DNA of 64,000 bases from Corynebacterium glyciniphilum AJ 3170 (GTDB taxonomy: Bacteria; Actinomycetota; Actinomycetes; Mycobacteriales; Mycobacteriaceae), in NCBI RefSeq assembly GCF_000626675.1, contig NZ_CP006842.1:372001-436000 (forward strand), read 5' to 3'. Position 1 is the first letter of the stretch, and each line of letters opens with the position of its first letter. Positions 49,181-58,158 of the stretch are shown piece by piece. The position numbers and the translations under genes were made by a program. The notes under the pieces were generated by a model. The model ran no database searches. It was not told the DNA's origin and worked only from the letters and a program-made list of their open reading frames with translations.

Positions 49181-50641
49181 CTACTGTGTCTTCTGTCGCC
49201 ACACCGACGAGGTCGTGACCGCGGCGATGGCCGTGGTCAGGGGTACGGCGGCGACCAATGCCAGGGAACCCGTCGCTGAGCGGAGGATCTCGGTGGCCAT
49301 GATGTCCGAGGTCAGGATGTGTCCGATATCCCGGCCGGACACGCTGAGCAGTACCAGCAGGGGCAGCGCAGCGCCGGCGTAGGACAGCACCAGGGTGTAC
49401 ACGGTGGAGGCCAGGTGGTCGCGGCCGACCCGCATCGCCGTGCCGAACAGGCGCAGGTTCGACGCAGTGGGATCCAGCTGGCGAAGCTCGGCGATGGTCG
49501 AGGCCTGGGCCACCGTCACATCATTGAGCACGCCGAGGGTACCGATGATGAATCCGGCCAGCAGCAGCCCGCTGATCGACAGGCCGGGGAGATACAGCAT
49601 GATCTGCATGTTGTTTTCGTCGGCGAGGCCGCGCAGCTGGTTCGTGTCGATCGCCAGCCACGCCAGCGCGGTGCCCACCAGCATTGCCGCCAAGGTGCCG
49701 CCGAGAGAGGACGCTGTCTTCCAGTTCATGCCGTGGACCAGGAACAGCGCCAGGTACAGCACAGCGGAACATGCCGTGACCGCCAGCAGTACCGGGTCGC
49801 CACCGCGTGCCAGGGCAGGCAGCAGGAACACCGCGAAGATCCCGAGTGTGACCGCGAGCCCGAGGATGGACCGGAATCCGCGCCACGCACCGACCACAAC
49901 GATTGCCGCGAGGGTCAGCAGCAGCCACACCCACACCGGCGTGGTGCGTTCGTAGTCCTGGAAACCGTAGGTACGGCTGCCGTCCTCGGAGGTGCCGGTG
50001 GTCATCAGGATGTCTTGGCCGACGGGGAGCTCGGGCGAGCCGTCGGAGTCTGTCACCGCGAGCAGTGTGCGGCGTCCCTCCTCCGGCCCGGAGGTGATAT
50101 CCACGATGACCTGCGGGCACGACGCGTCTTCACCGCCGGCGGCGCTGGGATGGCCGGTAGGTGGTGAGGTGTCGAAGGAACGCCCGATCGCCGGCGAGTT
50201 GCAGGCCCCGGTGGTCTCCAGGGCGACGGTGCCGGACGACACCTCCTGGGCGAGACCGGAGGTCTGGTGGAAGTTGTCTCCGGTCTCCGGCTCCCCCTGT
50301 GGCCATTGCAGGACAACCGCCGCGGCGGTTGCGATGAATCCGACGACCAGGGCGATGAACAGGATCGACCTCGGCAACGTCCAGGTGATCCGGCGCGGGT
50401 CGAGGTTGCGCGGATGCATGCGTTCCGCCAGCGGCCGGTCGTCGGACGGGCCGTGGCTGTGGGCGTGACTGTGCCCGTGCTGGGCGGCTGCGGCGAGGGG
50501 GTCGGACGGCGCGGGGGCAGGCGCGTCCTTCTTCTGCCGTGCTGGCGCGGGGGCATGGTGGCGTCCCAAAGCAATGCTGCTTTCTCTCGGAGATGGTGCG
50601 GGGTGACGCACCTGAGGATAGCCGGGACGGCCCGTTGACAC
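49181..50641 (-). CDS. YibE/F-family membrane protein
   Basis: A 486-residue protein with a Pro/Ala/His-rich cytoplasmic N-terminus, one helix near residue 95, an extracytoplasmic domain to about 240, then seven or more helices. GFIIGTLGVLNDVTVAQASTIAELRQLD and GRDHLASTVYTLVLSYAGA are the YibE/F signatures. Function unknown. The GTG at 50641 has no RBS; a start further in (such as TTG near codon 24) is possible. Divergent from a TetR gene, with a palindrome between. Confidence 0.88.
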   Translation of the reverse strand: MSTGRPGYPQVRHPAPSPRESSIALGRHHAPAPARQKKDAPAPAPSDPLAAAAQHGHSHAHSHGPSDDRPLAERMHPRNLDPRRITWTLPRSILFIALVVGFIATAAAVVLQWPQGEPETGDNFHQTSGLAQEVSSGTVALETTGACNSPAIGRSFDTSPPTGHPSAAGGEDASCPQVIVDITSGPEEGRRTLLAVTDSDGSPELPVGQDILMTTGTSEDGSRTYGFQDYERTTPVWVWLLLTLAAIVVVGAWRGFRSILGLAVTLGIFAVFLLPALARGGDPVLLAVTACSAVLYLALFLVHGMNWKTASSLGGTLAAMLVGTALAWLAIDTNQLRGLADENNMQIMLYLPGLSISGLLLAGFIIGTLGVLNDVTVAQASTIAELRQLDPTASNLRLFGTAMRVGRDHLASTVYTLVLSYAGAALPLLVLLSVSGRDIGHILTSDIMATEILRSATGSLALVAAVPLTTAIAAVTTSSVWRQKTQ

Positions 50642-50648
50642 GCAGGGC

Positions 50649-50662
50649 TGAACAAGTGTTCA
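50649..50662. promoter_or_regulatory. 14-bp inverted repeat, probable TetR operator
   Basis: TGAACAAGTGTTCA (6-bp arms, spacer AG) lies 9 nt before the TetR start and 7 nt before the YibE/F start, so it could control both directions. Confidence 0.65.
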
Positions 50663-50671
50663 ATATTAAAC

Positions 50672-51256
50672 ATGCGTTCAACCGAGATTCTTGAGGCCGC
50701 AGTCGTCGAATTCGCCGCCCACGGATTCGCCGGCGCCACCGTGCGCGGCATCGCCCGTGCCGCCGGTGTGTCCCCGGGGCTCGTGCTGCACCACTTCGGT
50801 TCCCGCGACGGGTTGCGTGAGGAGTGCGACAACCACGTCTTCGCAGCGATCACCGAGGTGAAGAGGGCCAATGCTGACCGTGGGACCGCGGCACTGCCCA
50901 CCATGCTCGCCGACCCGCGCATGCGCGTGTATGTCGACTACCTCGTGGCCTCGCTCGTCGACCCGTCGGAACACGGTCAACGGTTCTTCGACCACTACGT
51001 GGACACCGTCGAGGAGATCCTTGATGACGGTTTCGCCGGGTACACCTTCCGCAGGATGGGCGGAAAAGCCGGGGAGGCGTCTGAGGACCGACGTGCCAGG
51101 GCGTGTGCTGTCGCACTGCTGGGTCTGGCACCGGCCATGCTGCACCAGCGTGCCGGCACGGTTCTCGGCACAGCGGACATGCCGGAGACCCTGTCACGGC
51201 TCGGGCCGCAACTGTTCGACATCTACCTGCACGGACTCATCGAGGAGAAACCATGA
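50672..51256 (+). CDS. TetR/AcrR regulator of the ABC-2 exporter
   Basis: A 194-residue regulator: [33 protein letters not shown] (about 23-52), then a helical ligand domain. The ATG at 50672 lies 9 nt after the palindrome and has no RBS. Its stop overlaps the ATG of the ABC ATPase gene (ATGA), so regulator and exporter are one operon under autocontrol. Confidence 0.92.
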
Positions 51257-52173
51257 CCAGCTCTGAGCCTGCTGTCGATCTTCGCGGCGTCACCAAGAAG
51301 TTCGGCCATGTCACCGCTCTCGACGGCCTCAGCCTCCAGGTGGGACAAGGGGAAGTCCACGGGTTTCTCGGACCGAACGGAGCGGGGAAGTCCACGGCGA
51401 TCCGCATTCTCCTGGGGATCCTCCGGCACGACGACGGCCGGGCTCGGCTGCTCGGTGGTGACCCCTGGAAGGACGCTGTCAGTCTGCACCGACGTCTGGC
51501 CTATGTTCCGGGTGACGTCGAGTTGTGGCCGAACCTCACCGGAGGCGAGGCGATCGACCTGTTCGCACGGCTGCGGTGCGGTCGCGGTGGCACCGGTGCC
51601 GTCGACACCCGACGACGCGATGAACTCATCGACCGTTTCCAGCTCGATCCCCGGAAGAAAGGGCGCACCTACTCCAAAGGAAACCGGCAGAAGGTCGCCT
51701 TGATCTCCGCCCTGGCATCCGACGTTGACCTGCTGCTGCTCGATGAACCGACCTCCGGCCTGGACCCCCTGATGGAGGCGGAGTTCCAGGAGTGCATCCG
51801 TGAAGCCGTCCGCGATGACGGGCGCACCGTCCTGCTGTCCAGCCACATTCTCGCCCAGGTCGAGGCTCTGGCTGACCGCATCTCGATCATCCGGGAGGGG
51901 CGCGACGTGGAGACCGGGACCCTGGACGATCTCCGGCACCTGCAGCGCACCGCAGTCTCCGTCCGCACCGACCGGCCGCTGGACGGCTTCGCCGACCGCG
52001 ACGGTATCCACGACCTGACCGTCGACGGTGGCGGACACGTGCACTTCGCTGCGGACACATCAGCCCTGCCCGGCATCATGGGTGAGCTTGCCGCACACGG
52101 TATCCGGACGATCACCGCCACGCCGCCGACACTGGAGCAGCTGCTGCTGCGGCATTACGGGGATGCGTCATGA
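51253..52173 (+). CDS. ABC transporter ATPase, multidrug/antibiotic (ABC-2 partner)
   Basis: 306 residues from ATG 51253, behind GAGGAGAAACC. Walker [15 protein letters not shown]-loop VPGDVELWP, signature region [16 protein letters not shown] (degenerate: SKGNRQ instead of LSGGQ), Walker [13 protein letters not shown] and H-loop LLSSHI. The YSKGNRQK form is typical of the DrrA-like branch serving ABC-2 permeases. Overlaps both neighbours by 4 nt. Confidence 0.92.
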
Positions 52174-53795
52174 CGGCGGAACTGACCGGCACCTGGACGC
52201 TGCTGCGGCTCATGCTGCGCCGTGACCGCGTCCGCCTCCCCGGCTGGGTGCTCGGCATGGCGGTGCTCACAGCGTACTTCGCCAACGCCCTGGGGGCGGT
52301 GGCGGACGAGGAATCCCTGGCGGGACTGGCATCCCTGGCCACCACCCCGGTGATGGGCCTGATCGGTGGGCCAGGGTACGGCTTCAACGAGATCACCCTG
52401 CCGCGGCTGTTCGCAGGAATGTACGGCCTTTATCTGATGATCGGCGCGGCACTCATGACAATGACGACCGTGTCCCGCCACACCCGGGTTGAGGAGCAGA
52501 CAGGCCGGGCCGAATTGCTGCGCGCCAACGTGGTCGGACGGCATGCCCAGCTCGTCGCAGCACTGCTCCTGTCCACGCTCATGACCGCCCTGCTGACGGC
52601 GGTCATGTGGGTTGTCGTCCAGTTCTCCGTGATGGACCCGGGGCCGACGTCGGCGAACCTGTTGTTCGTCGCCAGCGTCGGCGCGGTCGGTCTGGTGTTC
52701 ACCGGAATTGCAGCGGTGACTGTACAACTGTCGCCGTTTTCCCGCGTGGGGTCATCGGTGGCCGGTGCCGTGCTTGCGGTCACCTTCGTCATCCGGGGGC
52801 TGGGGGACATGTCCGCGTTGCAACAGGGGCACGACAGTGGGGTTGCCTGGTTGTCCTGGCTCTCCCCGCTGGGATGGTCGCAGCAGACCGCGCCCTACAC
52901 CCTCGACCGGTGGTGGCCGTTGCTGTTCTCGCTCGGCGCCACCGTCGTCCTGACCGGTATCGGCGTGGCATTACAGTCGCGCCGGGACCTGGCCGCGGGA
53001 CTCGTACCGGACCGTCCTGGCCCCGCGGTCGCGGCATCCTGGTTGGGCAGTCCGGTGGCCCTCGCATTCCGGCTTCAGCGGGCGTCGCTGATGGGGTGGT
53101 CCGTTGCGATGCTGGTGGCCGGCGCCATCTTCGGCGCTTTCGCCGGGCCGATGGCAGACGGCGCAGACTCCATGCCACCGGAGATTATGGAGGTGCTCGG
53201 CGGGGAGAGGGGGATCGTCGACGGCTATCTCGGGTTCATGGGCATCTACTTCGCGGTGATGATCGCGGTGTACGCCCTGTTGTCCGTGCAGTCGCTGCGG
53301 AGTCAGGAACAGGGGTTCCATACCGAGACGGTACTGTCCACCGCGGTGTCAAGGAGCTCCTGGCAGTTGTCCTGGACCGGGGTCACAGCAGCCGGCGCGG
53401 TGTGGTTGTCCGCTCTTGCAGGTGTGGGGGAGGGGATCGGTGCCGCCGCGGGCCTCGGTGATGCCGGTCTGGTCGGACGAACCCTGGTGGGGCACGTGGC
53501 GCAGGTGCCGGCGGTGTGGGTCCTGCTCGGCATCGGCGTCCTGCTGTACGGAGCGTTCCCACGGTTCGTGGGGCTGGCGTGGGCGCTCCTGGGGTACTCC
53601 ACGCTGCTCGTGCTCTTCGGAGAGATGATCAAGGTGCCTGAGGGCGTCCTCGACACGTCGGTGTTCCGGCATATCGGACAGTATCCCGCCGAAGCGTTGT
53701 CCTGGGGTGCCGTCGGTGCTCTGGCGGTACTGGCCATGGTGTTCACCGCGTTGGGTGCCTGGGCGTTCCGACATCGTGACCTGGCCACGACCTGA
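52170..53795 (+). CDS. ABC-2 multidrug exporter permease (double-length)
   Basis: A 541-residue membrane protein with about 12 helices in two halves (split near residue 280), the arrangement of the actinobacterial tetronasin-type exporters. [19 protein letters not shown] is the usual start of this group. Works with the preceding ATPase; substrate unknown. Its stop codon lies inside a 10-nt tandem repeat. Confidence 0.88.
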
Positions 53796-53810
53796 CACCA
53801 CCTGACACCA
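53791..53810. repeat. 10-bp tandem duplication at the permease stop
   Basis: CCTGACACCA is repeated exactly twice; the first copy contains the permease stop codon (TGA, 53793-53795). Probably a slippage duplication just ahead of the ABC-F promoter. Confidence 0.6.
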
Positions 53811-53828
53811 CCTGCTACGGTGAACGCC

Positions 53829-53876
53829 ATGACTGACATGGGATTCTCGATCGCCAGGATCTGGGGCCACCGCTGA
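53829..53876 (+). CDS. Leader peptide of the ABC-F gene
   Basis: A 15-codon frame, MTDMGFSIARIWGHR, ends 123 nt before the ABC-F start. TACGGT at 53816-53821 could be a -10 element, which would put the transcript start at or near the ATG (leaderless). An in-frame GTG at 53820 is an alternative. Its last three codons lie in the left arm of a GC-rich hairpin (53867-53885) and its stop codon in the loop, the layout of ribosome-stalling attenuators that control antibiotic-resistance ABC-F genes. Confidence 0.6.
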   Translation: MTDMGFSIARIWGHR

Positions 53877-53885
53877 CGGCGGTGG
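53867..53885 (+). promoter_or_regulatory. Hairpin 1:2 of the candidate ABC-F attenuator
   Basis: CCACCGC (53867-53873) pairs with GCGGTGG (53879-53885), loop TGACG. The alternative pairing GACGGCGG (53875-53882) with CCGCCGTC (53915-53922) uses the same middle strand, so the two folds exclude each other. A ribosome held at the end of the leader ORF would favour the second fold. Confidence 0.6.
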
Positions 53886-53935
53886 GGACTCCTGGCATCT
53901 GACTGACTTCTCTTCCGCCGTCTCCGACGATGATT

Positions 53936-53967
53936 CATCGCCGGGCGATGCATGTTGTGCTGCCCGG
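53936..53967 (+). promoter_or_regulatory. Further competing hairpins ahead of the ABC-F start
   Basis: CATCGC/GCGATG (53936-53941 and 53945-53950) and CCGGGC/GCCCGG (53941-53946 and 53962-53967) overlap and cannot form together. They lie 33-64 nt before the ABC-F start codon. Confidence 0.45.
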
Positions 53968-53999
53968 CTCCGGACCACGACACTGGAGTACAAGGACAC

Positions 54000-55619
54000 A
54001 TGTCCCGTCAGACCAACCCCGAAGAACAACAATCCCACATTCGCGCCGTTGACCTCGGTATAGCTATCGCCGGACGGACGATTCTCACCGGCGTCACCGC
54101 CACTGTCTCACCAGGGAACCGCCTGGTCATCGTTGGCGAGAACGGTGTCGGCAAGACCACCCTGCTGCACACGCTCGCCGGGTTGCGTGAGCCGGACGTG
54201 GGCAGTGTGACCCGCGCCGGCACCGTTACCCTCGTGCGGCAGGCCATGCACGACGACCCCGGCCACACCGTCGGCGACCTGATCGCCGACGCCACCGCCG
54301 AGGCCGACCGCGCTCTCGCCGACCTCGACACTGCCGCCCTCGCCGAGGGCGCCGACGGTGTGGCTGCCGCCGAGCAGGCCTTCACCCGTGCCCTCGACCG
54401 CGCGAACAGTCTCGACGCCTGGGATGCGGCGCGGCGCGTCGACGTCGCCCTGGCCGGACTGGACGCCTGCACCGACCGCAGCCGCGTACTGCACACCCTG
54501 TCCCACGGGCAGCGTTACCGCGTGCGACTGGCCTGCGCCCTCGGCCGCGACGGCAGCCTGCTGCTCGATGAGCCCACCAACCACCTCGATGCCGGTGCGC
54601 TGAGCTTTCTCACCTCCCGTCTGCTGGAACGCCGCGGACCGTTGGTGGTGGTGACCCACGACCGCGCCCTGCTTCGTGACCTCACTGCCGACGGGCAGGG
54701 CACGTTCCTTGATCTCGACCCGACCTCCGACGGCACACCCCGGATGACCACGGGAACCTACGACGAGTGGGTGTCCCGCCGCCGCGCGGACCGGGAACGC
54801 TGGGAGCAGGAGTACACGGCCCAGGTTGCTGAACACGTTCGCCTCGAGGCCTCTGTCGATGAGGCCCGCGGCAGACTGAGCACCGGGTGGCGGCCAGAGA
54901 AGGGCCACAACAAGCACGGTCGTGCCACCCGTGCGGCCGGCACTGTCCAAGCTCTGCACCGCAGACAGGACGCCCTGGCCAGTCATGCCGTCGACGTCCC
55001 CGAACCACCGTTGCGGCTACGTTGGCCGGAGAGCTCTGTCGCTCCAGGTCGAATGCTGTTGACCTGCGAGGACGTGTCCGTGGACGGGCGTTTGGCAGGT
55101 CCGGTGACTTTCGGATTGTCCGGCGGGGACCGGCTCGTCCTCACCGGCCCGAACGGGGCCGGAAAGTCCACCCTCGTCGACGTCCTACGAGAACGGGTGG
55201 AGCCGACGACGGGGCGGTGCCACATCCACGACGGAGCGCGGATCAGCGTCCTGAACCAGCATGAACCGCAGTGGTCGGAGTACGCGGAGCAGCACACTCG
55301 TGCCGCCGAGGTGTACGAGCGCGTCGCAGGGACGGACGGACCGGCACTGTCGACGCTCGGCCTACTTGACCGGACGGCGCGGTCCACTCCGGTTGACCGG
55401 CTGTCGCAGGGACAGCAACGCCGTCTCCATCTCGCGCTCTGCGTGGCGACGCGTCCTCACCTCCTCATTCTCGACGAGCCGACGAACCATCTGTCCGCCA
55501 CGCTGGTTGACGAGATGACGGCGGCGTTGCGGGCGACGGAGGCTGCCGTCGTGGTGGTCACCCATGACCGGCAGATGCTGCGGGACCTCTCTGGGTGGCC
55601 GGTGCTGGCCCTGCGCTGA
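54000..55619 (+). CDS. ABC-F ATPase, probable antibiotic-resistance ribosome protection factor
   Basis: 539 residues from ATG 54000, behind AAGGA. Two ABC domains without membrane parts: Walker A GENGVGKTT and GPNGAGKST, signatures LSHGQRYRVRLA and LSQGQQRRLHLAL, Walker B LLLDEPTNHLD and LILDEPTNHLS, joined by a charged linker (residues about 255-330). ABC-F proteins act on the ribosome; those preceded by a leader ORF are typically resistance factors for macrolides, lincosamides, streptogramins or pleuromutilins. It follows a drug-exporter operon. Drug spectrum cannot be read from sequence. Confidence 0.88.
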   Translation: MSRQTNPEEQQSHIRAVDLGIAIAGRTILTGVTATVSPGNRLVIVGENGVGKTTLLHTLAGLREPDVGSVTRAGTVTLVRQAMHDDPGHTVGDLIADATAEADRALADLDTAALAEGADGVAAAEQAFTRALDRANSLDAWDAARRVDVALAGLDACTDRSRVLHTLSHGQRYRVRLACALGRDGSLLLDEPTNHLDAGALSFLTSRLLERRGPLVVVTHDRALLRDLTADGQGTFLDLDPTSDGTPRMTTGTYDEWVSRRRADRERWEQEYTAQVAEHVRLEASVDEARGRLSTGWRPEKGHNKHGRATRAAGTVQALHRRQDALASHAVDVPEPPLRLRWPESSVAPGRMLLTCEDVSVDGRLAGPVTFGLSGGDRLVLTGPNGAGKSTLVDVLRERVEPTTGRCHIHDGARISVLNQHEPQWSEYAEQHTRAAEVYERVAGTDGPALSTLGLLDRTARSTPVDRLSQGQQRRLHLALCVATRPHLLILDEPTNHLSATLVDEMTAALRATEAAVVVVTHDRQMLRDLSGWPVLALR

Positions 55620-55666
55620 AAACGGTCTGATATGACCCGGGCGAACCGAGACGCTAACCTGGGTCC

Positions 55667-56125
55667 ATGTCCACAATCAGCCATGCTCCGGCAGCCGGGG
55701 TCGAAAGCGCCCGGTCAGCACCGGGGCAGTCGGCAGAGGTTGCTCGGTCGGCGAAGCAGGTATCGCGTGCGGACCGGTTCATGCTCCGGTTGCTCCGTGT
55801 CAAGGAAGTCGACCGGATCGACATGGAGGCGGTGGCCGGCGCACACCGGGCGTTCCGCTGGGCGATCGTGTTCTCCGCCGTGCGGTGCACGATCACCTAC
55901 CTGCTGGTGCCGATCCTGATCCCTGTCGTCAGCGTCGCCGGTATGGTCGCGACTCCGCTGAGTATCACTCTGTGCCTGTTGGCGCTGGTGAACGGGACGG
56001 TGAGCATGCGTCGCTTCTGGCGCACCGACCATCCGGGCAAGTGGATGTACACATGGTTCATGGCGGTCGTGTTCCTGATCCTCATCGGGACCCTCGCCTA
56101 CGAGTTCGTCGGATTGGTGGCGTGA
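55667..56125 (+). CDS. Small membrane protein, unknown function
   Basis: A 152-residue protein with a 65-residue polar N-terminus and three predicted helices (about 65-85, 90-108, 125-148). The segment RVKEVDRIDMEAVAGAHRAFRWAIVFSAVRCTITYLLVP has a conserved look known from actinobacterial proteins of unknown function. The stop overlaps the start of the next small membrane protein (TGATG), so they form a unit. Confidence 0.75.
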   Translation: MSTISHAPAAGVESARSAPGQSAEVARSAKQVSRADRFMLRLLRVKEVDRIDMEAVAGAHRAFRWAIVFSAVRCTITYLLVPILIPVVSVAGMVATPLSITLCLLALVNGTVSMRRFWRTDHPGKWMYTWFMAVVFLILIGTLAYEFVGLVA

Positions 56126-56292
56126 TGAAACCCGAGTCAGAGGCACCTGAGGTCCCGGAGAACATGGGAGCAGCGGAAGAACAGCCTGACCAGCAGGAGA
56201 TCCCTGGTTCGTCCACCGCGGACGTGGTGACGCTGCTGTTCATGGCGGCGATGATCATTGCCACAGTGGGATGCTTCATCTTCCTGATGTGA
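56125..56292 (+). CDS. Small single-span membrane protein
   Basis: A 55-residue protein with an acidic, Pro/Glu-rich N-terminus and one C-terminal helix (VVTLLFMAAMIIATVGCFIFL). Start chosen at ATG 56125, which overlaps the stop of the preceding gene. Likely a partner of that membrane protein; function unknown. Confidence 0.65.
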   Translation: MKPESEAPEVPENMGAAEEQPDQQEIPGSSTADVVTLLFMAAMIIATVGCFIFLM

Positions 56293-56296
56293 GTGC

Positions 56297-56776
56297 TCAG
56301 GGGTTCAACATCTCCCGGCATTCTTCGGTGGTGTAGCCCTCGAGGCATTCTGCCCACTCGCGTTGGCCGTCCACCCACGGGTGGCTCGGCGTCTGTCCCT
56401 GGTTGAGCTGCCAGACATAGTTGTCGCACATGATGGCGGTACCGTCTGCTGCGACTGCTGTGCGCCCGATATCTGCACCGATGCACTGGTCACCGAGCTG
56501 AGGTCCCGTGACCTGGAGTGGCTCAGGCTGGATGGTCTCGGCCTCTGGGTTGACCGGTTCCGGTTCGGGTTGTGGCGCAGGTTCCGGTGCGACCTCGCCC
56601 TGCGTCGGATTCGGCTCGGGGGGATCATCCGGCGTGGTGGTTGTGCTGGACACGCTGGACGCCGTTGTCACGCTCGTGGCGGTTGTGGCAGATGAATCGC
56701 CGTCATCTGAACATCCCGCGAGGACGAAGGAGACGGCCGGGAGACAGACGAGGGCTGTGTATATCCTGTGTCGCAT
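56297..56776 (-). CDS. Secreted lipoprotein with Pro/Glu-rich linker
   Basis: 159 residues from ATG 56776 (MRHRIYTALVCLP). Signal peptide with lipobox LAGC near residue 21, then a Thr/Ser-rich and Pro-Glu-Pro-rich linker of about 60 residues, and a small C-terminal domain with four Cys (GDQCIGADIG, IMCDNYVW, WAECLEGYTTEECREML) that probably form two disulfides. The domain is common in corynebacterial and mycobacterial secreted proteins of unknown function. Confidence 0.75.
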   Translation of the reverse strand: MRHRIYTALVCLPAVSFVLAGCSDDGDSSATTATSVTTASSVSSTTTTPDDPPEPNPTQGEVAPEPAPQPEPEPVNPEAETIQPEPLQVTGPQLGDQCIGADIGRTAVAADGTAIMCDNYVWQLNQGQTPSHPWVDGQREWAECLEGYTTEECREMLNP

Positions 56777-56940
56777 GAAAGAACAGTAGGTCATCCTGTT
56801 TCAGGGGAAAAGTTCCCCGGTGTGCCGCGGCGACAGTCAAGTCCCGGAGAGTGGGTAACAGAATCCGGCTCCTGCCGCCACCGAAAGCCGAAAAGTGTCA
56901 CGCACCGTCAGCCGTGATCCACCTGGTGAGACCACATCCG

Positions 56941-58158
56941 TCACCCCAGCAGGTCCTCGCCCCAGTAGCTGTCCCCGGACGTCCCTGCCGGGACGTGGAA
57001 CACCGCCGAACCGACGTGGGTGATCCACTCGTTCAACCGGTCACCGTCGGCGAGTCGCTTCTGGACCGGGATGAAGGACGTGTCCGGGTCGCGCTGGAAG
57101 CAGGTGAAGATCAGGCCGGTGTCGGAGAGGTCGATCAGCTCGGCGTCCTGCAGGCCGGCCGGTCCGGCGGTGACGGGGAGGTCATAGTTGTAGGCACGCC
57201 GCAGCATGCGTTCAGCGTCGCCGTTGTGCGACGTCGCCAGGGCGACGTGGGAGTGGGCGTCGATGAGGGGGAGTCCGTCGTCGCCGATCTTGTTCACGTC
57301 GACGTCGGTGAACTCGTCGCCCCCACTCAGCGGTGCGCCTTCGACGATGGTGCGTCCCATCGCGACCTCCCGCGTGCCGCGGTCGACGGACTCCCATTCA
57401 GGCATGTCGAAGGCGACGCGTCGCACGATCATGCAGGTCCCGCCGTCGTCGTTCCAGACCTGGGTGTCGAACTCCTTCTCCGAGTGCGGGTTGACGGTGC
57501 CGTCCTTGAAGCCGAAGAGGTTGCGCGGTGTGCCGTTCTGCACGTCGAGGAAACCCGTCTGGCTCCAGGACGGTCGGGCGTAGTCGGCACCGCCGCGGAC
57601 GAGGACGCGCAGGGCGTGGGAGACTGTCGTGCGGTCGTCGCCGCAGATCTGCAGGACGATATCGCGGTCGCCCCAGGAGTCGTCGAGCCGGTCACCGGTG
57701 AAGTGAGGCAGCGGCCTCAGCCAGGCGGGGGCTTTGTCGGCGATCCCGGCGGCGGTGTAGAGCCCCCGGCCGAAACCACACGTCACGGTGAGGTTACCGG
57801 GGTTCGACGCGAGCTCGGGCTCCAGGTCGGCCAGCACGGGCGTGCCGGCGCAGAGGCGTCGGGCGTCCCCGGTCCAGATGCGGAGCAGACGCTGGACGGC
57901 TCTGCGGTCGGCACCGTCGCGCAGTGAGAAGGCGACGGTGGTGTTGTGCGACTGGGGTGGGGTGGCGATGCCGGCCTGGTGGTCACCGTCGAAGGGAACG
58001 GCGGCTGTCTCCCGTTCAGTAGTGGCGGCGTCGTCCTGTCCCTCGGAACAGGATGTGGTGACGGCGGCGGCACCGAGGACACCGAGAGTGCCGAGCCCGC
58101 CGAGGAAACCCCGACGCGTCAGGCCCCGCGACACGGTGTGTGACTCAGTGCCCGGCAT
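56941..58158 (-). CDS. Dyp-type heme peroxidase, Tat-exported
   Basis: 405 residues from ATG 58158, which overlaps the end of the preceding chaperone gene. Twin-arginine signal LTRRGFLGG at about 13-21. The DyP hallmark FGFKDGT (catalytic Asp) and DRGTREVAMGRTIVEGAPL are present, with a heme-ligand His in the C-terminal part (DAHSHVALA). Related to EfeB, which acts with EfeO/EfeU in iron uptake, though those genes are absent here. Co-transcribed with the PCu(A)C gene. Confidence 0.92.
   Translation of the reverse strand: MPGTESHTVSRGLTRRGFLGGLGTLGVLGAAAVTTSCSEGQDDAATTERETAAVPFDGDHQAGIATPPQSHNTTVAFSLRDGADRRAVQRLLRIWTGDARRLCAGTPVLADLEPELASNPGNLTVTCGFGRGLYTAAGIADKAPAWLRPLPHFTGDRLDDSWGDRDIVLQICGDDRTTVSHALRVLVRGGADYARPSWSQTGFLDVQNGTPRNLFGFKDGTVNPHSEKEFDTQVWNDDGGTCMIVRRVAFDMPEWESVDRGTREVAMGRTIVEGAPLSGGDEFTDVDVNKIGDDGLPLIDAHSHVALATSHNGDAERMLRRAYNYDLPVTAGPAGLQDAELIDLSDTGLIFTCFQRDPDTSFIPVQKRLADGDRLNEWITHVGSAVFHVPAGTSGDSYWGEDLLG

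Follow-up and report, generated by a model that had tools for sequence, protein, structure and literature searches.

What controls the ABC-F gene at positions 54000-55619 of the window, the 64,000-nucleotide (nt) stretch of Corynebacterium glyciniphilum AJ 3170 analysed here (NZ_CP006842.1, positions 372,001 to 436,000)? The stretch in question, 53829-53999, sits between an ABC exporter permease gene that ends at 53795 and the ABC-F gene itself. The first-pass annotation, made from the letters of the window alone, had proposed that this stretch is a drug-sensing attenuator, composed of a 15-codon open reading frame (ORF) and mutually exclusive hairpins. Comparison across loci supports the proposal, in that both the peptide motif and the stems are conserved. 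In our opinion, with a probability of roughly 0.78, the ABC-F gene is regulated at translation by an erm(X)-type attenuator that responds to a macrolide-like drug. The basis for this in the data is conservation, covarying alternative pairings, a -10 box, and a module shared with Erm and MFS genes; from these we infer the arrest, the identity of the drug, and induction.

The proposed mechanism involves six RNA strands, numbered from the 5' end (Table 1). Transcription would begin at or beside the start codon of the upstream ORF (uORF). With no drug present, the uORF would be translated to its end, after which strands 1 and 2 would pair (1:2), followed by 3:4; the bases of strand 5 and those beyond it would then be available to the Shine-Dalgarno (SD) region (5:6), so that ABC-F would be poorly translated. 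In the presence of the drug, the ribosome would arrest while its P site holds I11 and its A site W12. A ribosome's front edge extends roughly 16 nt downstream from the first base of the P-site codon; when that codon is codon -5, the edge would reach 53875, where strand 1 gives way to strand 2. The arrested ribosome would cover strand 1 and free strand 2, 2:3 and 4:5 would form, and the SD would be released. Below, 2:3 and 4:5 are called the ON pairings, and 1:2, 3:4, and 5:6 the OFF pairings.

The leader peptide and its predicted start

The folding energy of the region is modest compared with shuffled sequences (z = -1.74; 9 of 200 shuffles fold as well), and the question of whether the element is real was therefore settled by comparison across loci. 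The ABC-F protein was searched for in 242 congeneric genomes, and the loci with at least 45% identity were kept (42, including the window). G096 (35% identity), judged to be a paralogue, was excluded from the genus set, and among the weaker matches (paralogues, 31-40%) the upstream regions read were those of four in the window's own genome. The 42 genus loci comprise 24 with a leader of the window's type (class 1), 17 with a leader of another type (class 2; MHLYFL-stop in 16 and MLLYFL-stop in 1), and one, L034, with VNYLFFVYWG-stop. A broader screen covered 68 upstream regions (24 from family loci, 8 from named loci, and 36 further family stretches). Its filter, for a short ORF with a TANNNT box 5-8 nt ahead, matches 64 of the 68 regions as against 8.2% of shuffled ones, and also 14 of 280 window tiles. 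Class 1 was recognized in 22 of these regions by the filter and in two more, L058 and L087, by inspection; in L058 the filter itself picks another small frame. Counted together, the class-1 layout precedes 48 ABC-F genes, 24 in the genus (window included) and 24 outside it. Alignment A1 contains 45 distinct leaders, L021, L022, and L024 being omitted as identical to others.

Class-1 peptides mostly end in [K/R]-x-[W/R]-x-x-R-stop. The motif at codons -6 to -4 of the 45 leaders is KPW in 17, KLR in 8, RIW in 6, RLR in 6, RPW in 5, KLW in 2, and PTR in 1, with Trp at codon -4 in 30 leaders and Arg at codon -1 in 44. The distance from motif to stop is constant across the aligned leaders, and in the close relatives L009-L012 the peptide is identical to that of the window or differs by one residue. 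At codon -5, Pro and Leu are each encoded by three synonymous codons, as is Arg at codon -4; such variation argues that selection acts on the peptide. The motifs at which erythromycin arrests ribosomes include +X+ and XPW (PMC8298421). One or the other is present in 36 of the 45 leaders (KPW, RPW, KLR, RLR). Thus, it is conservation, as judged by sequence comparison, and not folding energy that shows the element to be real.

The placement of the uORF relative to its putative promoter is equally constant. A TANNNT box ends 7 nt (39 cases) or 6 nt (2 cases) before the uORF in all 41 genus leaders of the two classes, near-copies included, as against an expectation from shuffling of 4.9% per region; L034 also has such a box at 7 nt, which makes 42 of 42 genus loci. 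The conserved box predicts that the uORF is leaderless, and the window's uORF is probably so, its transcript starting at the first base. The first-pass annotation had held a transcript start downstream of 53876 to be incompatible with its proposal; the start predicted here is 53829. A generic promoter scan called no consensus promoter.

The leader class follows the ABC-F protein. A tree was built from 69 ABC-F proteins and 2 paralogues, with L020-L022, L024, L049, and the short L048 dropped and the 36 family stretches lacking a whole gene excluded; six of its rows cover less than half of the kept columns. Class 1 forms one group (44 rows plus L083, whose upstream region yielded no leader; support 100/98) and class 2 the other (23 rows plus L034; support 90/85). 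The attenuator is thus old within its clade.

Alternative pairings and predicted Shine-Dalgarno exposure

All of the pairings described in the first-pass annotation are present in the window. The uORF ends within a GC hairpin formed by CCACCGC (53867-53873) and GCGGTGG (53879-53885), with the stop codon in the loop; this hairpin can be extended by GCCAGGA with TCCTGGC. The middle strand can pair over 8 bp in the alternative way, GACGGCGG (53875-53882) with CCGCCGTC (53915-53922). Two further hairpins exclude each other: CATCG/CGATG, which spans 53936-53950, and 53940-53946 with 53962-53968.

Conservation of the peptide and covariation of the stems in orthologues had been put forward as a check of the proposal, and both were found. 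In A1, a sequence-only alignment, 93.2% of the cells of the ON pairings are paired, and 7 pairs changed on both sides, compared with 1.7 in shuffles (reached in 0 of 500); slid controls gave 29-58%. The OFF pairings are paired in 86.2% of cells, with 9 double-changed pairs versus 4.3 in shuffles (1 of 500); 1:2 carries a bulged base in some leaders, and in some, the window's among them, the register of 5:6 differs from the counted one. Column-based pair counts fail for the erm(X) leaders discussed below because their 2:3 register differs. In place of such counts, a swap test of duplex energies was applied to alignment A2, which consists of 51 leaders hand-chosen without near-copies (31 ABC-F leaders, 18 Erm leaders, L136, and L137). 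The leaders' own mean was reached in 0 of 2000 permutations for each of 1:2, 2:3, and 4:5, and the own duplex was better than the row median in 41 of 51 leaders for 1:2 and in 42 of 51 for 2:3. It should be noted that relatedness among the leaders inflates both the covariation and the swap statistics. Taken together, covariation or the swap test backs 1:2, 2:3, and 4:5, and 3:4 is weak.

When strand 2 passes from hidden to free, the mean predicted SD exposure of the 45 leaders rises from 0.128 to 0.403, and changes of more than 0.05 are upward in 33 leaders and downward in 3. The corresponding values in a shuffled-spacer control are 0.293 and 0.348, with a fall in 19%. This contrast was picked after the masked and unconstrained results had been seen, a choice that came with a narrower SD window. 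With ribosome-masked as against unmasked folding, SD exposure rises modestly, from 0.23 to 0.34; it is higher in 36 of 45 leaders (no threshold), and start-codon exposure in 31 of 45. In unconstrained folding, the mean for 2:3 goes from 0.48 to 0.76 and that for 3:4 from 0.26 to 0.12. SD release, the last step by which a stalled ribosome would free the switch, is accordingly predicted in most family members, whereas the window's own sequence gives no such prediction.

This and several other results weigh against attenuation as we have described it. The SD exposure of the window goes from 0.22 to 0.17, and its relatives L009, L010, and L012 give no clear rise; 39% of shuffled-spacer controls rise too; the effect is smaller when 25 coding bases are added (0.140 to 0.303; 24 of 45 up, 4 down); and unconstrained folding gives a mixed result, in that 5:6 stays flat (0.33 and 0.34). 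Among the pairings, the number of pair types in the OFF set is not above shuffles (244 of 500), the outer three columns of 1:2 are unpaired in 16-20 of the 45 leaders, and 3:4 is marginal in the swap test (64 of 2000). The own duplex beats the row median in only 21 of 51 leaders for 3:4 and 9 of 51 for 4:5, the latter probably reflecting ties, since most strands are alike. With regard to the peptide, the ratio of nonsynonymous to synonymous change (pN/pS) in the uORF gives a weak signal: in the 31 leaders whose frame has 14 codons, it is 0.59 in frame and 0.88 and 0.71 out of frame. L036 has no basic residue at -6 and ends in Cys, and the uORF of L087 (Brevibacterium aurantiacum ATCC 9175) begins in a different frame from that of its siblings L079-L082; an internal ATG still opens the motif frame there, and L087 is possibly a natural loss of the sensor. 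Finally, the window's RIW is neither +X+ nor XPW, so that its drug may differ, and in ErmDL an Arg-to-Trp change at the corresponding place relieved telithromycin stalling, the ErmDL motif being dispensable for erythromycin (PMC8298421).

Two alternatives bear on these data. The same sensor might act on transcription, its hairpins being an intrinsic or Rho-dependent terminator as in the MsrD, LmrC, or VmlR leaders. Several characterized ABC-F attenuators do act on transcription (PMC12421871, PMC10314930, PMC8546547), and 4:5 is a strong GC hairpin. We nevertheless consider such action unlikely: no terminator-like site was found in 53600-54100 (a result that bears on intrinsic terminators), U runs are rare (TTTT in 5 of 45 leaders), strand 5 continues into a CTCC able to pair with the SD, and SD exposure changes in most of the family once strand 2 is free. 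The second alternative stems from the window's failure to respond, which would mean either that the real SD is the AAGGA nearer the start, or that other pairings matter, or that the window carries a weaker copy. Under this alternative, the window's leader would be a decayed copy that no longer switches while its conserved relatives work. The weakness of its 3:4 and its unchanged SD exposure fit this case, yet we find it quite improbable, given that the uORF, the -10 box, and strands 1, 2, 3, and 5 are intact, that the near-identical peptides of L009-L012 have been kept, and that the uncertain SD (GGAG at 11 nt or AAGGA at 3 nt) means that the prediction may test the wrong bases.

Table 1. Features of the attenuator region and the ABC-F gene (window coordinates)
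Feature	Position	Strand	Remark
Possible -35, CTGACA	53792-53797		Read by eye
Predicted -10 box, TACGGT	53816-53821	+	7 nt ahead of uORF start
Leader ORF, MTDMGFSIARIWGHR-stop	53829-53876	+	15 codons; predicted arrest motif R10-I11-W12
Strand 1, CCACCGC	53867-53873	+	Within last uORF codons
Strand 2, GACGGCGGTGG	53875-53885	+	Partner strand 1 (via 53879-53885) or strand 3 (via 53875-53882)
Strand 3, CCGCCGTC	53915-53922	+
Strand 4, GCCGGGC	53940-53946	+	Partner strand 3 (weak in window, -8.1 kcal/mol) or strand 5
Strand 5, GCCCGGC, then TCC	53962-53968	+
Strand 6, CTGGAG, putative SD	53983-53988	+	Can pair with CTCCGG 53968-53973; its GGAG lies 11 nt upstream of the ABC-F start codon
Alternative SD, AAGGA	53992-53996		3 nt before start codon
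ABC-F ATPase gene	54000-55619	+	539 residues, two ABC domains

The module before Erm and MFS genes

A covariance model built only from ABC-F leaders (R1) gave 90 matches in 79 of the 242 genus genomes, and it matched 42 of 401 family genomes, in 8 of 31 genera. Known class-1 ABC-F leaders account for 24 of the 90 genus matches. Of the 66 others, 33 were read: 25 precede Erm-type methyltransferase genes, 4 precede MFS exporters, one is L136, and 3 precede nothing relevant. The Erm leaders score 29.3-48.6 bits (E 8.7e-8 to 0.0016 per genome), and the 3 matches taken as false score 27.1-29.6 bits, which overlaps the weakest Erm score (L154, 29.3 bits). Seven further family matches were read: an ABC-F gene follows one of them, and Erm-type genes follow the other 6, among which the frame of L158 has only 101 codons. 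For most Erm genes the name rests on the first residues; the seven tested with hidden Markov models all exceed the cut-off of the broad Erm model. Of the MFS exporters, the first comes closest to Lmr(A) and the second matches the antiporter model 2A0121, each under the cut-off; the third matches Pfam MFS_1, and the fourth, L167, runs off its contig.

An example of an Erm leader is MLISGTAFLRLRTNR-stop. The erm leader stretch of L141 shares 99.4% identity with C. striatum NC_004939 and C. diphtheriae NC_005001, which we take to be pTP10 and pNG2, and 94.7% with Trueperella pyogenes pAP2. In pAP2, the leader ahead of erm(X), MLISGTAFLRLRSNR-stop, carries the annotation 'erythromycin resistance leader peptide'. 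The erm(X) gene of C. jeikeium is said to be inducible by macrolide-lincosamide-streptogramin B (MLS-B) drugs, a finding attributed to Rosato in 2001. Erythromycin-inducible translational attenuation of erm(X) has been suggested (PMC3350403). The presence of the same element ahead of erm(X)-type and MFS genes points to macrolides as the signal. The idea that the uORF senses amino-acid supply, for example of tryptophan or arginine, is very remote: these residues are indeed frequent at codons -4 (Trp, 30 of 45) and -1 (Arg, 44 of 45), yet Trp and Arg swap at codon -4 between orthologues, the module stands before Erm and drug-efflux genes alike, and the terminal Arg codons lie within strand 1, so that their conservation may come from RNA pairing. 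This wider occurrence, together with the TACGGT box, the possible SD hairpin, and the extension of the first hairpin, is additional to the first-pass annotation.

Class-1 leaders also precede ABC-F genes on plasmids, namely pLMA7 (KLR) and pRErm46 and p1-WH99 (KPW). On the latter two, both of Prescottella equi (L135, L177), the ABC-F gene with its KPW leader is located near erm(46). BLASTN of the window's own leader against plasmids gave no match. At L136 (G233:C4), a class-1 leader of 80.9 bits is followed by the first ABC-F codons and then by an unrelated ORF without an NCBIfam match, an apparent recombination behind the leader. At L152, an Erm gene has the leader MCCASIAVVENNRR with IAVVE, presumably the arrest motif of the ErmA leader, on a class-1-like RNA. 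Some exchange or common origin underlies the sharing of the module by Erm and MFS genes.

One regulatory module thus ties together three unrelated actinobacterial resistance mechanisms, including the copies on pRErm46 (Prescottella equi) and pLMA7 (Micrococcus). It predicts which resistance genes stay silent until a drug is present, and uninduced susceptibility tests may therefore miss such genes. The set of peptides, with Trp or Arg at one position and Lys or Arg two before, provides a natural series for studying how macrolides choose stop sites, and the predicted leaderless uORFs would show how a drug is sensed when no ribosome-binding site lies upstream.

Known systems and other leader classes

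The erm(X) attenuator resembles class 1 in its leader ORF with an R-x-R-type motif near the end, in the stop codon lying in the first hairpin, in its near-identical strands 4 and 5 (GCCGGGCGG ... GCCCGGCTCC), and in the location of the SD; in nearly all erm(X) leaders checked, a -10 box stands 6-8 nt ahead. It differs in that it controls a 23S rRNA methyltransferase rather than an ABC-F protein, in its motif (mostly RLR or RPL, as against KPW, RIW, or KLR in ABC-F leaders), and in the register of 2:3, as read from the A2 alignment. The ErmC and ErmD leaders likewise combine an arrest motif in a short ORF with rival stems and downstream release (PMC8298421, PMC10219788); compared by layout, class 1 has six strands and a probably leaderless uORF. 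MsrDL, too, is a leader ORF that controls a macrolide-resistance ABC-F gene, but it uses a stop-codon stall and an intrinsic terminator (PMC10314930). LmrC, TiaA, and Are5sc of Streptomyces are actinobacterial ABC-F genes under ribosome-mediated attenuation; they differ in having other uORFs, terminators, and a response to lincosamides, streptogramin A, or pleuromutilins (PMC8546547, PMC12421871). CplR combines the transcriptional and translational levels (PMC10201436).

Ribosome-mediated attenuation of resistance genes and the annotated erm(X) leader peptide are therefore known already. As far as we have searched, four things appear to be new: the occurrence of this module before ABC-F and MFS genes in several genera, the leaderless placement and its conservation, the covarying cascade of strands, and peptides of the Trp type. 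A literature search that covered few subscription journals gave no report of a class-1 leader before an ABC-F gene among the matches listed. An Rfam scan of window positions 50000-58000 returned only mir-124, under its gathering score, and a scan of 6 loci with the leader gave 0 matches at the gathering score.

Class 2 occurs in the sister ABC-F clade as a leaderless [M/V]HLYFL-stop with the variants HLIFE, HLYFS, and QYLFFL (L030, L032, L033, L035, L037-L048, and L050; also L069-L074, L085, and most of L090-L110). In the 17 genus leaders, the uORF codons pair with the SD region at a mean of -12.3 kcal/mol, versus -9.8 kcal/mol with exchanged partners (0 of 5000) and -6.5 with shuffled SD regions. 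Class-1 leaders reach -10.2 kcal/mol in the same measure; thus, it is the co-adaptation, and not the energy level alone, that is special to class 2. MsrDL (MYLIFM) stalls at its stop codon under erythromycin (PMC10314930), and MHLYFL resembles it, which the window's leader does not. A ribosome stalled at the MHLYFL stop would hide the anti-SD, a device separate from class 1.

A broader reading, which as a whole we would accept or reject on the toss of a coin, joins four points: that leaderless sensor ORFs govern a large part of the inducible macrolide defence of actinobacteria; that a portable six-strand RNA with exchangeable peptides (KPW, RPW, RIW, KLR, RLR, and possibly IAVVE-like) drives ABC-F, Erm, and MFS genes; that the MHLYFL codons of the sister clade are an anti-Shine-Dalgarno sequence hidden by the stalled ribosome; and that the Trp-type peptides are an arrest class with its own drug range.

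A third leaderless leader, [M/V][I/T]QAL[L/S/Y/I]F[H/N]-stop, precedes related ABC-F genes in a single genus of the family, g27 (L111-L116, L118-L121, and L123). The window's genome has two further ABC-F genes with leaderless uORFs, each with a -10 box 7 nt ahead: MRK-stop at L002 (C1:189338) and MGTLIL-stop at L003 (C1:1049110, minus strand). The former is reminiscent of the CplR and VmlR2 leaders, MR[I/M] and MK[L/Q] (PMC10201436).

The window's ABC-F protein itself has ABC_tran in two stretches and is nearest to the generic ribosome-protection ABC-F and TlrC/CarA/OleB/SrmB-type models. Over residues about 20-530 it scores 278 bits against NF000355 and 275 bits against NF000171, below the curated cut-offs of 380 and 800, respectively. 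A phage search gave one ABC-F match (42.6%), which has no annotation. Directly upstream of the attenuator, window positions 50672-53795 encode a TetR regulator, a DrrA-like ABC ATPase, and an ABC-2 permease, possibly a second drug-export operon.

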